From NCBI GenBank assembly GCA_015488535.1, contig WFNP01000022.1, positions 1 through 49,978 of the forward strand: a stretch of 49,978 nt of DNA, in the 5' to 3' direction. Source of the stretch: Nitratifractor sp. GTDB taxonomy: Bacteria; Campylobacterota; Campylobacteria; Campylobacterales; Sulfurovaceae. The notes below the pieces were generated by a model. It saw nothing but the letters and a program-made list of their open reading frames with translations, did no database searches and was not told where the DNA came from. Position numbers and translations under genes: made by a program. How positions within the stretch are numbered: the stretch's first letter is position 1; the number at the start of each line of letters is the position of its first letter. Shown here one piece after another: positions 2,044 through 30,666 of the stretch.

Positions 2044-2101
2044 AATCTCTCCTATATTTGTATATTAATATATTGGTTATAAATTTTACGGTAACATAAA
2101 T

Positions 2102-2107
2102 ATTATA
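2102..2107 (-). promoter_or_regulatory. Candidate -10 box for rnr
   Basis: TATAAT on the minus strand, about 58 bp before the rnr TTG, in the 75-bp gap after dut. No convincing -35 is seen, which is normal in Campylobacterota. The box abuts a GGCATT repeat. It may give rnr a promoter independent of the tamA-tamB-dut run. Confidence 0.35.
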
Positions 2108-2135
2108 ATGCCCAATGCCTAATTATCTAATGCCT
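2108..2135 (-). repeat. GGCATT-type short repeat at the dut stop codon
   Basis: Minus strand reads GGCATTAG, 6 bases, then TAGGCATTGGGCATT, with the dut TAG stop inside the repeat. The same heptamer-like motif occurs at 26675-26700, 27064-27073, 33328-33347, 33627-33636 and 33733-33745. Confidence 0.5.
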
Positions 2136-2805
2136 CATACCTCTTTTCCAATTCACTATACAGCTCTTTGGGTGTAATATCCTTATTTTCAGAGAGTATC
2201 TCTTGCATTACTACATTATCTTCTACACCATTCCACTCTTTTATATAAGTCCCTTCTTTATATCCGTTTTTTTGCCTAAAACTATTTAGGATATTTTTAC
2301 CTATATATAATTTATACAGACTATCCATATCCAACCCTGCATTATTGGCAATGGCAAAAAAATCTTCTATCATCTGCTCGATACTCTCATTGCAATATAA
2401 ATTGGCTATCATCTTTTCGACTTTAGATATCTCTTCATAAAAATTTTCAGCTTTTTCATATTCATTATTGACAAATTTGTTATAAGAATCTAGATTTTCT
2501 ATTGTATCCGCCAACTCTTTGATATTAGCATTTCCGTTTATAGTGTTTAATCTCAATGCTTCACTCATCACAAAGTGCCAGATATCAACACTCTCTATCA
2601 TAATATTTTCATAATCAGGACTTGCTTCTATACTCTTCCAGTGCTTCCATGGATAACTCTCAATCAATTCAGAGGCTTCAAGCAATATACATCTACGCCA
2701 ATCTATTAATTTGCCTCTGTTTGTAATACCTCTCTCCCAACCCTCGCCATTGGTTGAGTCATTCAATTCCTGTTGAAGATTTAACATTATCTCAATTTTA
2801 CTCAT
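2119..2805 (-). CDS. dut: Dimeric (all-alpha) dUTPase
   Basis: A 228-aa dUTP diphosphatase of the all-alpha NTP pyrophosphatase superfamily. It hydrolyses dUTP (and in this family dUDP) to dUMP, limiting uracil in DNA and feeding dTMP synthesis. The N-terminal half shows the family pattern: LNLQQELND near residue 8, then WRRCILLEASELIES with the metal-binding Glu pair, WKHWK, and ESVDIWHF supplying further acidic ligands. It closely resembles the Campylobacter jejuni dimeric dUTPase rather than the trimeric beta-type enzyme. Its start codon overlaps the tamB stop by one base (TAATG), so translational coupling is likely. The stop codon lies inside a dispersed GGCATT-type repeat. Confidence 0.9.
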   Translation of the reverse strand: MSKIEIMLNLQQELNDSTNGEGWERGITNRGKLIDWRRCILLEASELIESYPWKHWKSIEASPDYENIMIESVDIWHFVMSEALRLNTINGNANIKELADTIENLDSYNKFVNNEYEKAENFYEEISKVEKMIANLYCNESIEQMIEDFFAIANNAGLDMDSLYKLYIGKNILNSFRQKNGYKEGTYIKEWNGVEDNVVMQEILSENKDITPKELYSELEKRYEALDN

Positions 2806-25552: not shown

Positions 25553-26686
25553 ATGTCTAAAAAAATAGGCTCAATTATTCTATTCATATTTGCTTTGGGT
25601 GTAGCTGTCACAGGCTATAGATATATCAGTTATCGGATGCAAAATGCTGTAAGTGATGCAGCATTTATCAAAAGTGATGAATTGCCTATTCTCTCATTCA
25701 AAGTCGGTGGCAAAGTAGTCAAAATGACAAAAGAGGAAAATAGTGCCGTCAAAAAAGGAGAGCTTCTTGCCATAATAGATGACAGTGATTTTCAGACAAC
25801 AAAATCAAAGCTTATATATCAAAAAGATGCACTTAAAAAAAATATAGAAGCTATGAAACTAAAAAAAGACAGACTCTTTCTAACACTCAAACTCCAAAGC
25901 TCAATAAGCCAGACTGATATATCAGCTCTTAGAGCCAAAAAAGAGGCTCTACAGTATCGAATAAAAGCTACCCAAGCCAAACTATCCAAACTCCAAAAAG
26001 ACAGCATCAGATATGCCAATATGCTATCCAATAATTTGATAGCCAAATCAACATATGAAAATATAGATACTCAAACAAAAGCTACAAAAGATAATATATC
26101 AGCTATGCAAAAAGAGCTAAAAGCTGTAAATGAGAGTATATCCAAAGCCAAATTGGCTCATAAACTAAGTTTTGTAAATCAAAAGCAGATTGAAGAGTTG
26201 GATAAGAGTATCCAATCACTCCAGGATAAATCAAAATCACTCCAAAAAGCTATAGATGCATTGAAATTAAAAATCTCTTATACCAAACTCTACTCTCCGA
26301 TAGATGGCATAGTTGCCAAAAAGTTTTTTGATGCTCCAAAAGTAGTATCCAAAGGCTCTCCTGTATATGCTATAGCCAACCCAAATAAACTATACTGCGA
26401 AGTATTACTCTCAGAAAAGAAACTAAAAGGTGTAAAAGTAGGCAACAGAGTAACAATTAGTGTAGATGCCATTGAAGATAAAAAATACAGAGGAGTAGTA
26501 AAGTCTATTTCACCCGTATCAGCCTCTACTTTCAGCCTGGTCCCTAGAGATATAGCCAGTGGAGAGTTTACCAAACTGGATCAAAGATTTAAAATCAGAA
26601 TCAAGATGGATGATACAGAAAATCTTAGAAGCGGAATGGGAGCAACAGTAGCTATATCTCGCAGAGCAAGAGACAATGGGCATTAG
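25553..26686 (+). CDS. HlyD/EmrA-family membrane fusion protein
   Basis: A 377-aa periplasmic adaptor. One N-terminal membrane anchor (about 5-24) is followed by a lipoyl half (LSFKVGGKVVKMTKEENSAVKKGELLAIID), a long coiled-coil hairpin (about 85-235, rich in Lys, Ser and Gln), the second lipoyl half (YSPIDGIVAKKFFDAPKVVSKGSPVYAIANP) and a beta-barrel domain. It should link the MFS pump to the TolC-like channel. Its TAG stop lies inside a GGGCATTAGGCATT repeat, and the last residues (RDNGH) may derive from that insertion. Confidence 0.85.
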   Translation: MSKKIGSIILFIFALGVAVTGYRYISYRMQNAVSDAAFIKSDELPILSFKVGGKVVKMTKEENSAVKKGELLAIIDDSDFQTTKSKLIYQKDALKKNIEAMKLKKDRLFLTLKLQSSISQTDISALRAKKEALQYRIKATQAKLSKLQKDSIRYANMLSNNLIAKSTYENIDTQTKATKDNISAMQKELKAVNESISKAKLAHKLSFVNQKQIEELDKSIQSLQDKSKSLQKAIDALKLKISYTKLYSPIDGIVAKKFFDAPKVVSKGSPVYAIANPNKLYCEVLLSEKKLKGVKVGNRVTISVDAIEDKKYRGVVKSISPVSASTFSLVPRDIASGEFTKLDQRFKIRIKMDDTENLRSGMGATVAISRRARDNGH

Positions 26687-26700
26687 GCATTTGGCATTTG
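26675..26700 (+). repeat. GGCATT-type repeat, left flank of the four-helix-bundle gene
   Basis: AATGGGCATT, AGGCATT and TGGCATT in tandem at 7-bp intervals, beginning inside the HlyD reading frame and supplying its TAG stop. An inverted copy (AATGCCCAAT) lies at 27064-27073 on the other side of the small gene. Confidence 0.6.
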
Positions 26701-26712
26701 AAGGATATACAA

Positions 26713-27075
26713 ATGGCAAATAGATTAAATGACCTAAATGTATATAAAAAATCTATATATCTATCCAAAAATGCTTGGAAATTATATACTTCACTACCTA
26801 TGGATATCCAAATAGTTACAGGCAAACAGTTTATAAGAGCTGTTGATTCAATTGGAGCCAATATTGCAGAAGGGTTTGGTAGATACCATTACAAAGATAG
26901 TTTGAAATTTTATTATAATGCAAGAGGCTCTTTATGGGAATCTAAACACTGGATATATTTACTCTTTAAAAGAGGTTTTGTCAATAAAGATACATTTGAT
27001 AATTTTATTGCAGATATAGATATATTAGGAAAACAGTTAAACAATTTTATTAACAGGTTGAAAAATGCCCAATAA
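26713..27075 (+). CDS. Four-helix-bundle protein (S23/23S rRNA intervening-sequence family)
   Basis: A 120-aa protein of the S23/IVS four-helix-bundle family: LNDLNVYKKSIYLSKNAWKL near the start, then QFIRAVDSIGANIAEGFGRY and FYYNARGSLWESKHWI. The function of the family is unknown; many genes sit in rRNA intervening sequences or as small cassettes. I start at the ATG at 26713 (AAGGA 7-8 bp upstream); a TTG at 26698 is less likely. It is inserted between the HlyD and MFS genes of an efflux operon. Its stop overlaps the MFS start by 11 bp, and GGCATT motifs flank it in inverted orientation. Confidence 0.85.
   Translation: MANRLNDLNVYKKSIYLSKNAWKLYTSLPMDIQIVTGKQFIRAVDSIGANIAEGFGRYHYKDSLKFYYNARGSLWESKHWIYLLFKRGFVNKDTFDNFIADIDILGKQLNNFINRLKNAQ
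27064..27073 (-). repeat. Inverted GGGCATT copy, right flank of the four-helix-bundle gene
   Basis: AATGCCCAAT, complementary at 9 of 10 positions to AATGGGCATT at 26675-26684. It supplies the ATG of the MFS gene and ends in the TAA of the small gene. Confidence 0.5.
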
Positions 27076-28621
27076 ACCAATAACTAATAACAAATACACT
27101 AATAGTTGGGACATCACTCCAAAAGAGAGAGCAATCTTTTCTATTATCGTAATGACAGGGGCATTTATGGCAATACTTGATACTACCGTAGTAGATGTCA
27201 TAGTGCCAAAACTTACTGCTCCACTGTCAACTGATATGTATGGGGTGCAGTGGATAATTACCAGCTATATGGTGGCAGCTGCTATTGCATTGCTCATTAC
27301 TGAGTATCTTATCAAACGATTTGGAGCCAAAAGTATATTTTTATCCGGAGTAGCACTCTTTACTGTTGCTTCTTTTATGTGTGGGATATCTGATACACTG
27401 GAAACTATTATCATTTTTAGAGTCATTCAGGGAGTCGGAGAGGCTTTTATTATGGTAACTAGCCATATTATGATTTTTAGCTACTTTCCACCCGAAAAAC
27501 AGGGCTTGGCTATGGGAATATACGGGCTTGGTGTCAGCTTCGCTCCAGCTCTTGGTCCTACAATTGGTGGATACTTGACAGAGTTTTACAGTTGGAGAAT
27601 GGTGTTTTTTATAAATGTCCCCGTTGGTGTGATGCTGGTAACTGCCGGAGTGATATTTTTGCCGAAAGAGAGCTTTTTTACCAAGCTCAAATTTAACTTT
27701 GTCAGCTTCTTTCTACTATCCATTGCTACAATATCACTGCTTATTATGCTCAGTCGTGGTCAGCAGATGGGGTGGTTTAATTCTATCGAGATAGGAGTAT
27801 TGTTATTTACTACTCTTATATCTTTTGCACTATACGGTATCAGCGAACTACTCTCAAAAGATAGATTGATAGATTTTAGATTATTTAGTAATCCGCTCTT
27901 TGCCAATGGTATGATGATATACTTTTTTATTCTTGGTTTTTCAATGTATCAATATTTTTATCTATTGCCGGTTTACTATGAGCATATCAAGATGTTACCT
28001 ACTCTTGATGCCGGTATTGCGGTCTTTGCCTTTGCGGTATTTATAGGTCTTTTTTCTCCGATTGCCGGGATACTGGCAGATAAAATCGGAGCCAAAAACA
28101 CAGTAGCCATTGCTGCGGGATTTTATGTAATTACATCTTTGCTCTTTTTACCACATCTAAATTACTATACACCCATCCATCAGGCAATGCTTTTGACTAT
28201 CCCCTTTGGTATCGGTATGGGTCTGTTTTTTGCTCCTGTTACGGTAATGGTATTGCAAAACGCTCCGGGTGAGAAAGGAGAGTTGGCTATTGTATTGATG
28301 GATTATTTTAGATTTGTAGGAGGGAGTTTTGGCACAGCACTGGCTACGAACAATATGGAGTATTTTAAAAATATGCATTTTCTAAGAATGCAGGAGTTGC
28401 AAAATTGGGAGTATCTAAACTACTATTTACATAAACTTCAATCACTATCTGGTATGAGTATAGATAAAATCAAAGCCACCTTTGGCAACTATGAGACATT
28501 TATGGGATATAATTACGGATTTTACAATACATTTATGCATGCAGGATACTGGGGATTGCTCGGCTCTATCTTTGTAATTGCACTCTTTATAAACTTCAAA
28601 CCATCAAAGGCTAAGAAATGA
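27065..28621 (+). CDS. DHA2-family (EmrB-like) MFS drug exporter
   Basis: A 518-aa transporter with about 14 membrane spans. DHA2 hallmarks are TGAFMAILDTTVVDVIVPKL in span 1, the motif A region EYLIKRFGAKSIFLSG, and GVSFAPALGPTIGGYL with WRMVFFINVPVG (motif C and following loop). It should pump drugs or other small molecules using the proton gradient, through the HlyD-type adaptor and TolC-like channel flanking it. The start overlaps the inserted small gene by 11 bp and the end overlaps the TolC gene by 4 bp. The start codon is part of a GGGCATT repeat, so the original N-terminus may have been altered by the insertion. Confidence 0.88.
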   Translation: MPNKPITNNKYTNSWDITPKERAIFSIIVMTGAFMAILDTTVVDVIVPKLTAPLSTDMYGVQWIITSYMVAAAIALLITEYLIKRFGAKSIFLSGVALFTVASFMCGISDTLETIIIFRVIQGVGEAFIMVTSHIMIFSYFPPEKQGLAMGIYGLGVSFAPALGPTIGGYLTEFYSWRMVFFINVPVGVMLVTAGVIFLPKESFFTKLKFNFVSFFLLSIATISLLIMLSRGQQMGWFNSIEIGVLLFTTLISFALYGISELLSKDRLIDFRLFSNPLFANGMMIYFFILGFSMYQYFYLLPVYYEHIKMLPTLDAGIAVFAFAVFIGLFSPIAGILADKIGAKNTVAIAAGFYVITSLLFLPHLNYYTPIHQAMLLTIPFGIGMGLFFAPVTVMVLQNAPGEKGELAIVLMDYFRFVGGSFGTALATNNMEYFKNMHFLRMQELQNWEYLNYYLHKLQSLSGMSIDKIKATFGNYETFMGYNYGFYNTFMHAGYWGLLGSIFVIALFINFKPSKAKK

Positions 28622-29907
28622 TTAGATATCTACTTGTAACTACACTTTTAAGCTTTTTATCTAATGCACATACTCTAAAAGATATTTTGCATCATATAGA
28701 TAAAAGCCCTGCTCTAAAGAGTGCTGATATGGCAGTAATTGCCTCAAAAGAGAGAGCTTTGGCAACCAAAGGGCTAAATATGCCCTCAATTGATATAGAC
28801 TTCAAAGCCATTCATCTAAAAGACACCCCCACAATGATACTCCACTTCCCTGCCCTACCTATACCCACATCTGATTTGCCAATGGGTTCAAGAGACAACT
28901 TTGAGGGTGAAATATCCATAAGCTATCCTCTCTTTAGCGGATTTGCCATCACTTCCAAGATAGAGCAAAGCAGACTAAAAGCCGAGCAAAGCAGACTCAA
29001 ACGAAAAGATTTACAAAGAGAGCTTTATCTAAAAGCTATAGAGCTTTTTGGCTCTATCAAAAGCATTGAATCAGCAATTAAAGCCCAAAAAAAAGCCAAA
29101 AAGGCTATGCAGGATGCTCTAAAAAAGGCAAAAGGATTCTACTCTAATGGTCTCATTCCTCCCTCAGAGCTGTATAATATCAAAGCCAAACTCTATGAGA
29201 TAGATTCAACCTTGGCTAAAACTCACTCCCAAAAAACCAAACTGTTAAATATGCTCTCATACCTAAGTGATACAAAAATTAGGTATATTGAAGGTCAAAT
29301 TAATACAAAGATACCCTCAGCAAAAATATTAAAACAACTTGCACACAAAAACAGAAGCGATATTTTGGCTCTAAAAAGAGTGCTAAATATAAATGATGAG
29401 CAAATCAAACTTGCAAAAAGCACCCTCTATCCAAAAGTGGCTCTAAAAGCCGGACTCAAACGACACGGAGACACACTATCACTCAATGGAGACGGATACA
29501 CCAATGCAGACAACAGTTATATAGCTATGGATATCAATTATAATCTATACAGTGGCGGCAAAGATATACACAATATAGAATCAGCCAGATACCTAAAACT
29601 ATCAAATGAATCAAAACTGATTGATTATATAAATAGAGTTGATACTGACATAGATAATGCTTACAGTGATTTAACAGCACTAAGATACCAGCTAAAAAGT
29701 GCCTCTATGCAACTAAAAGCCCAAAGAGAGTATTACAAATTGACTCTGGGCAGGTTTGAAAATCAGATGGCAAGTGCTGATGAACTAAGCCGTGCCATTG
29801 CGTCACTCGCCAATGCCAAAGCCAAAAAATCAGCTATCATTTACTCTATAGAGGTGCAAAAAGCCAGGATTGGATTGTTGGGAGGATTGGGTGTAAATAA
29901 CAGATAA
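28618..29907 (+). CDS. TolC-family outer-membrane efflux channel
   Basis: A 429-aa outer-membrane factor. A signal peptide covers about 1-18 (MIRYLLVTTLLSFLSNAHT). Two long helical hairpin repeats follow, with SYPLFSGFAITSKIEQSRLKAEQ (about 101-123) in the first and DINYNLYSGGKDIHNIESARY (about 304-324) in the second; the paired 'Y-x-L/L-F-S/SGG' strands are typical of TolC. It overlaps the MFS gene by 4 bp (ATGA) and completes the tripartite pump. It converges on the HEPN gene with a 22-bp gap and no obvious terminator. Confidence 0.85.
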   Translation: MIRYLLVTTLLSFLSNAHTLKDILHHIDKSPALKSADMAVIASKERALATKGLNMPSIDIDFKAIHLKDTPTMILHFPALPIPTSDLPMGSRDNFEGEISISYPLFSGFAITSKIEQSRLKAEQSRLKRKDLQRELYLKAIELFGSIKSIESAIKAQKKAKKAMQDALKKAKGFYSNGLIPPSELYNIKAKLYEIDSTLAKTHSQKTKLLNMLSYLSDTKIRYIEGQINTKIPSAKILKQLAHKNRSDILALKRVLNINDEQIKLAKSTLYPKVALKAGLKRHGDTLSLNGDGYTNADNSYIAMDINYNLYSGGKDIHNIESARYLKLSNESKLIDYINRVDTDIDNAYSDLTALRYQLKSASMQLKAQREYYKLTLGRFENQMASADELSRAIASLANAKAKKSAIIYSIEVQKARIGLLGGLGVNNR

Positions 29908-29929: not shown

Positions 29930-30337
29930 CTAAATAATATCTTGAAGATTAATTTGAAAAATATTACAGACTTTTTCCAATACACTTTTTGCAAAATTAT
30001 AAAACTCTTCAGCATCATCTACCGTAGGCTTCCCATGTGGTAAAAGTCCCATATCACCGGGATACCTGGACTCTATATAAAGCCCATCCAAGATAATCAT
30101 AATATCCTCATCCAAATCATTTAAAACAAATGAAACATTTTCATATAATTTCAGCAATTTATGAACTTTGGGTATATCTATTTCATTCTCTTCAATAACA
30201 GCTTTCATACATTTTTCTACACACTGCTGTGCATGAAATGCAACAATATGTGTCAAATGAGGATTATTAATAATTTCTTCTATTGTAAGCAAATCATCCG
30301 CTGCTGCTTTCAACCACTCTTTCGTAAAAGCTCTCAA
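29930..30337 (-). CDS. HEPN-domain protein (HI0074-like)
   Basis: A 135-aa helical HEPN protein: WLKAAADDLLTIEEII, VAFHAQQCVEKCMKAVI (about 33-49), HKLLKLYE and YIESRYPGD. The Rx4-6H RNase motif of HepT toxins is not present, so it resembles the substrate-binding HI0074-type HEPN rather than an RNase. It overlaps the MNT gene by 4 bp, in the order MNT then HEPN, the opposite of the pair at 16.6 kb. Role is unknown; a toxin label would be premature. Confidence 0.75.
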   Translation of the reverse strand: MRAFTKEWLKAAADDLLTIEEIINNPHLTHIVAFHAQQCVEKCMKAVIEENEIDIPKVHKLLKLYENVSFVLNDLDEDIMIILDGLYIESRYPGDMGLLPHGKPTVDDAEEFYNFAKSVLEKVCNIFQINLQDII

Positions 30338-30666
30338 GATATGATTACACCTTCATTCAATATTTTTCTACTAAACATACTATCCATCTCTACAAATTTA
30401 TCATGCATAGCTTTAGTATGAATAATCAAATCTATCGGATATTGTTTCATTATATTTTTTATGGCAATAGTAATTTTTTTATATATTTCACTTTTCTCTT
30501 TCCATGTATTAGGTATAAACTCATCATTTGTAACTATATATAAATCTATATCGCTATCATCAGTAGGATTCCCATATGCATAAGAGCCAAAGAGTATAAT
30601 TTTATGAGGATTTAAAGGTCTTAAATTATCAATAATATCAAATTTTATCTTTTCTATATTTAACAT
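30334..30666 (-). CDS. MNT-type nucleotidyltransferase (HI0073-like)
   Basis: A 110-aa minimal nucleotidyltransferase. The signature is IILFGSYAYGNPTDDSDIDLYIV (about 24-46) with the catalytic DxD, and PIDLIIHT carries the third acidic residue. The GSYARGxxxxxSDIDL pattern is nearly canonical. Its 3' end overlaps the HEPN gene by 4 bp. Together they form an MNT/HEPN two-gene module 36 bp after the hotdog gene. Substrate is unknown. Confidence 0.8.
   Translation of the reverse strand: MLNIEKIKFDIIDNLRPLNPHKIILFGSYAYGNPTDDSDIDLYIVTNDEFIPNTWKEKSEIYKKITIAIKNIMKQYPIDLIIHTKAMHDKFVEMDSMFSRKILNEGVIIS

Follow-up and report, generated by a model that had tools for sequence, protein, structure and literature searches.

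Putative mobile cassettes carrying an S23 gene between tandem heptamers: a copy in an efflux operon of Nitratifractor and its relatives in other bacteria

Background

Among the 'unknown' genes of bacteria, those of the S23/four-helix-bundle type are often met. S23 ORFs occur in the intervening sequences (IVSs) of 23S rRNA in Coxiella, Leptospira and Brucella, where they lie in sense between complementary ends, as they do at the locus described here. The origin of IVSs has been a question since 1990, and we know of no catalytic activity of S23. The IVS in the 23S rRNA of Coxiella combines the S23 ORF with a 28-bp stem, is excised by RNase III and has three tandem copies of the heptamer GACAGAT beside the ORF (PMC4990558).

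Dispersed heptamers have been described separately, and without a cause, in several genera: GGGAATC in Xanthomonas, GGGGA(T/C)T in Nostoc and TAACTGA in the Beggiatoaceae (PMC4692102, PMC4679880). Like the repeats reported below they are intergenic and tandem, and those of Xanthomonas often form inverted pairs. However, in these papers they are linked to G-quadruplexes or regulation rather than to S23, and no general link to mobile elements is stated (PMC4692102, PMC4679880).

Two further systems share features with the S23 loci. REP/RAYT elements (REPtrons) are short hairpins spread over the genome, with a species-specific repeat and a linked gene. They differ in that the gene encodes a Y1 transposase, whereas the S23 loci encode a four-helix bundle and end in tandem heptamers. 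The second system is bAvd of diversity-generating retroelements, which also has a four-helix-bundle fold.

The comparisons below lead us to a reading that we consider rather probable: the S23 loci would be copies of a transcribed mobile cassette that carries a single S23 gene, ends in cognate heptamer arrays and is accompanied by derivatives lacking S23.

The S23 locus of the window

The window, that is the whole stretch of 49,978 nucleotides that was analysed, contains an efflux operon at positions 25553-29907. Its three genes, all on the + strand, encode an HlyD-type efflux adaptor (25553..26686), an MFS efflux pump (27065..28621) and an outer-membrane efflux protein (OEP; 28618..29907). Gene limits are simple ORF calls throughout. 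Between HlyD and MFS lies a gene for a protein of 120 aa (26713..27075, + strand), which the original prediction had taken for an S23/IVS-type gene. Profile searches confirmed this: the protein matched PF05635 (23S_rRNA_IVP) with an E-value of 6e-28 and 97.6 bits, above the curated Pfam cut-off of 33.8, and TIGR02436 with 95.3 bits, above the NCBIfam cut-off of 24. Its solved relatives are XCC0516 of Xanthomonas (PDB 2gsc) and PDB 2rld, which form pentamers of four-helix bundles (PMC4990558). Unlike the IVSs, this locus is not within 23S rRNA but inserted in the HlyD-MFS-OEP operon, and the hosts of the S23 cassettes examined are likewise protein-coding operons. Directly after the efflux operon, at 29930-30666 on the - strand, a HEPN domain gene (PF05168, E 8e-22) stands beside a minimal nucleotidyltransferase gene (PF18765/PF01909), a typical toxin-antitoxin pair.

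The S23 gene is flanked by the inverted pair AATGGGCATT (26675-26684) and AATGCCCAAT (27064-27073), which match at 9 of 10 positions. The TAG stop of HlyD is created at the joint of left heptamer copies 1 and 2, and the ATG of the MFS ORF lies within the right copy, so that the start of this ORF overlaps the final codons of S23. The motifs and coordinates of this pair had been predicted correctly. Taken alone, though, the ten-base pair is not above chance (its left/right inverted score is 17, and mismatched loci average 16.8); the signal of the window copy that exceeds chance is period 7.

The left arm (26678..26698, + strand) consists of three tandem heptamers, GGGCATT, AGGCATT and TGGCATT. 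It is G-rich in sense and is the sole period-7 array in the window to pass the threshold used. The right arm (27064..27098, + strand) is G-poor in sense and comprises five degenerate heptamers, AATGCCC, AATAAAC, CAATAAC, TAATAAC and AAATACA, with lag-7 repetition at 15 of 21 positions; it overlaps the 3' end of S23, and its translation seems to give the MFS protein an N-terminal leader. Since most of it belongs to another heptamer (CAATAAC type) than the left arm, the window copy is partly degenerate. Translation of right-arm heptamers as a variable N-terminal leader of the downstream protein seems to occur also at L025, L026, L020 and L093, the proteins concerned being an rRNA methyltransferase, an acetyltransferase and an MFS pump.

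The left arm matches a GGCATTN family found throughout the genome from which the window was taken, where 154 overlapping matches to GGCATTNGGCATT were counted (control: 0), many of them at contig ends. A hairpin of the same kind that lacks S23 is located at 2071..2125 (- strand) in the window. One half, TAGGCATTGGGCATT, falls where the gene at 2119-2805 (- strand) has its 3' end; ACCAATATATTAATATAC is on the far side, beyond a spacer of about 40 bases. Elsewhere in the genome an S23-less GGCATTA/CCAATAACC hairpin precedes pepA. The ends of seven contigs (C4, C7, C8, C31, C53, C56 and C67) carry arrays of the heptamer GGCATTG with up to about 19 copies, and this repeat probably breaks the assembly.

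Inverted arms of period 7 at S23 genes of many phyla

PF05635 is represented by one copy in the genome of the window and is present in 94 of 175 genomes of the same family, with up to 11 copies per genome; many of the comparison genomes are drafts. In the flanks of 91 S23 loci of this family a lag of 7 dominated, with a mean best 21-base score of 15.7 on the left and 16.2 on the right against about 10 for unrelated lags, and lags 14 and 21 followed as multiples of 7. The arms are inverted: left flanks scored 35.4 against the reverse complement of their own right flanks, but 16.8 against those of other loci and 17.2 against their own right flanks read directly. In a further 78 loci, from other organisms of at least 12 phyla, the inverted match of a locus with itself was 35.8, versus 16.5 for mismatched flanks. 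Individually, 62 of the 169 loci exceeded the 99th percentile of mismatched left/right pairs, and these came from Bacteroidota, Geobacter, Cloacimonadota, Bipolaricaulota, Atribacterota, Patescibacteria, Bacillota, Planctomycetes, Omnitrophota, Hydrogenedentota and Proteobacteria, among other groups. Arms were also present at all four of the cyanobacterial plasmid S23 genes examined. By this comparison, S23 genes in many phyla are nearly always accompanied by heptamer arms.

The survey of other S23 flanks that had been suggested with the original prediction thus did reveal inverted repeats on both sides. The GGCATT repeats expected there are literally absent. This fulfils to the letter one refuting condition set with the original prediction, but the condition misses the rule shared by the loci, which is period 7 plus inversion. 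GGCATT as a universal S23 signal is ruled out, since the units differ by S23 lineage (see below). In the open-access literature we found no description, for the 23S rRNA IVSs, of heptamer arms, their dependence on the S23 lineage or S23-less copies, nor anything that ties S23 to heptamer arms in general. A search of 50,697 phage records for carriage of an S23 cassette gave no matches.

Several variants were seen. Period 8 takes the place of period 7 at some S23 loci (L111, L114, L116, L144 and L164). In an S23 subfamily with the motif KSFxFALRI (L074, L082, L070, L080 and L091) the inner ends of the arrays are formed by conserved strings, AACCGA or TTTTGG / GTTATGG, with a small hairpin next to them. 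Similar strings terminate several of the dispersed arrays without S23 in genome G062. Plasmid pANA02 of Anabaena sp. 90 carries an S23 cassette (L297) whose heptamer arms are of the AGGTGAC type; it separates cas6 from cas4 in a type I-D CRISPR operon and has the sense orientation.

It might be thought that the arms match because they pair in RNA. The cassette would then be an IVS in mRNA: the arms would pair in the transcript with S23 in the loop, RNase III would cut the stem, and the match would persist because the RNA stem is selected. The 23S rRNA IVS of Coxiella is such an element (PMC4990558). The orientation of S23 is as this reading would have it, since between co-directed neighbours the gene is in sense in 71 cases and antisense in one, and the orthologous cassette L100 folds with a long closing stem around the gene (z -4.3). 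The window copy, on the other hand, has a closing stem of just 8 bp (z -1.4), the 23S rRNA motifs searched for were present in none of the S23 loci examined, and cutting would sever the host mRNA. Between the arms of the 91 loci we counted 67 G-U but 126 A-C mismatches (p 3e-5), the opposite of what selection on RNA should produce. The predominance of A-C implies that pairing in RNA is not what keeps the arms matched, and copying at the level of DNA fits better. We regard an IVS in mRNA as an unlikely explanation. The A-C mismatches, which outnumber G-U by about 2:1, would be G-T wobbles on the antisense strand; their excess may stem from a mutation bias that differs between the strands, or the antisense strand may be the one that folds.

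Heptamers, S23 lineages and dispersed arrays

The consensus heptamers of the left arms are diverse, 75 of 91 being distinct. Where two loci have unrelated flanks, their heptamers agree in 6 or more of the 7 bases in 59% of the pairs with an S23 identity of 70% or above, compared with about 4-5% of the pairs with distant proteins. When two S23 genes of one genome belonged to different subfamilies, they had the heptamer in common in none of 32 pairs, whereas close S23 genes in different genomes shared it in 31%. Because close S23 genes share a heptamer and distant ones in the same genome do not, the arms travel with the gene. By this comparison each S23 lineage carries its own heptamer, the arms changing together with the protein. 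The absence of sharing across subfamilies within genomes also rules out, for the family set, that the arm heptamer is merely the common repeat of the genome; for the left arm of the window, though, the GGCATTN family is such a common repeat.

Heptamer arrays are also dispersed away from S23 genes. They were counted with one unit family, GTGANNN, so that others, including the GGCATTN of the genome from which the window was taken, are missed by these counts. In the 175 genomes of the family the number of arrays rises with S23 copy number (rho 0.65, p 1e-22; within-genus permutation p 0.0005), the median being 0 in genomes without S23 and 56 in those with at least four S23 genes. This is a correlation and not causation. 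Arrays were also found in nine S23-negative genomes, of which eight are less than 93% complete. In other groups, GTGA-type arrays were dispersed in 16 of 18 S23-carrying genomes.

In 400 kb of genome G062 we counted 52 arrays of period 7, just seven of them at S23 genes; as controls, periods 5 and 8-11 gave 0-2 arrays each and period 6 gave 11. The dispersed units of this genome match those of the resident S23 loci at p 0.06-0.11, which is suggestive only. With crude gene calls, arrays at the 3' ends of genes are G-rich in sense in 24 cases versus 6, and those at 5' ends are C-rich, again 24 versus 6.

Arrays without S23 are common, and this would be expected if the heptamers arose by ordinary polymerase slippage at junction hairpins, with S23 as an unrelated passenger. 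Heptamers are over-represented among the long simple repeats of many bacteria, and slippage has been proposed as the cause (PMC4692102, PMC4679880). However, slippage leaves unexplained why arms are near-universal at S23 genes across many phyla, why the heptamer unit is linked to the S23 lineage, and why array numbers follow S23 but not other mobile genes. We hold it to be a decidedly improbable account.

Presence, absence and exchange of the cassette

The MFS gene was present in all 13 genomes of the genus, and the HlyD-MFS junction was readable in 12 of them. Four junctions are empty (G036, G039, G044 and G047). The other eight are filled and have matching arms of the CATTGGT, TTATTGG or GGCATTN type. 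No target-site duplication was found, the junction sequences having diverged too far between relatives with and without the cassette.

Across the genus the MFS tree and the S23 tree disagree, and the case of G037 illustrates how. Its flanks match those of G045 (0.97-1.0) and its MFS protein is 96-97% identical to the MFS proteins of G041 and G045. The cassette between them matches G043 and G046 (about 0.9 versus 0.6) and is of the kind found in G042, G043 and G046 (86% versus about 60%). The switch points are the 3' end of HlyD and the 5' end of MFS. By this comparison the cassette block has been exchanged horizontally between related species.

Exchange at the same junction could proceed by homologous recombination via the conserved flanking genes. 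This does not extend to the 71 pairs of close S23 proteins (at least 70% identity) at unrelated sites, for which real transposition or an equivalent is needed. Presence and absence at one junction, horizontal exchange at a site and close copies at unrelated sites are general hallmarks of mobile elements, and all three were observed. The idea of a small mobile cassette, as first put forward for the window, accordingly gains from the empty and filled junctions and from the exchange, and loses GGCATT as its shared signal.

Junctions at hldE and pepA in the same genomes are empty, carry a heptamer hairpin without S23, or are filled with S23 cassettes with several different heptamers. S23-less hairpins are found at pepA in G037 and G042; at hldE in G036 only the left half is present.

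The original prediction had further proposed stop and start signals built into the cassette. A cassette selected for such signals would leave the operon unharmed by the insertion, and at the window site the HlyD stop and the MFS start do lie in the arms. Moreover, as 7 mod 3 is 1, three tandem copies of a stop-containing unit place a stop in every frame, and left-arm units with a stop codon are mildly enriched (63 of 91, versus 50 +/- 4 in shuffled units). The start signal fared worse: right arms show no excess of ATG (3 of 105 units, 5.9 expected). About a third of the left arms have no stop-containing unit, and at pepA a few bases separate the natural stop from the start of the cassette, whose other end lies upstream of the natural ribosome-binding site. 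Selection for built-in signals is in our view a very remote prospect.

Nature of the putative cassette

The S23 cassette does not have the make-up of a transposon or IS, with a transposase and fixed terminal inverted repeats: S23 is the sole ORF between the arms, and the arm sequence differs between loci. It can be regarded as a mobile cassette that has received little description and for which no transposase is known. We suggest that such a cassette sits in sense at gene-gene junctions within operons, an orientation borne out by the comparison of loci, and would rely on the host promoter. The S23 homopentamer may recognise its cognate heptamer arrays in nucleic acid that is single-stranded or folded into a hairpin, bind them there, and help the cassette to be copied or annealed into junctions that are transcribed. 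As the cassette has no known nuclease of its own, host replication and repair would do the chemistry, and S23 would stand to its heptamers much as REP-associated transposases stand to REPs. Slippage in steps of seven together with exchange between the arms might keep these matched while the unit drifts. The S23-less hairpins, whose spacer is short, probably arose from cassettes by deletion or represent non-autonomous copies.

The 23S rRNA IVSs with an S23 ORF look by analogy like a special case of the cassette, the same element lodged in rRNA. A wider reading, which we offer tentatively as possible though short of probable, is that S23 and its cognate arrays represent a mobile element of a new kind, spread across the bacteria. 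Period and protein lineage, and not a fixed sequence, would set its ends, and a pentameric four-helix-bundle protein that is not an enzyme would assist its movement; the heptamers of Xanthomonas, Nostoc and Beggiatoaceae, as well as the rRNA IVSs, would then be its traces. One rule, that the S23 lineage dictates the heptamer and the S23 number tracks the arrays, would join S23 itself, the origin of IVSs and the heptamer repeats, and the cassette could reveal a route of transposition without a known transposase.

That S23 is only cargo of elements driven by REP/RAYT or a reverse transcriptase is hardly credible: hairpin-ended S23-less copies resemble REP/BIME, and bAvd, a retroelement accessory protein, is a distant profile relative (PF22296 with E 0.002 for a related S23, below the family cut-off, and no match for the window protein), but no reverse transcriptase is linked or required, neither Y1_Tnp (rho -0.02) nor RVT_1 counts (rho -0.24) correlate positively with arrays in the 175 genomes, the complete genome G036 has six S23 genes and no reverse transcriptase, and G041, which has the highest array count, has no Y1_Tnp.

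The S23 gene itself is under purifying selection, with dN/dS values of 0.05-0.16, and is therefore not mere debris in the putative cassette.
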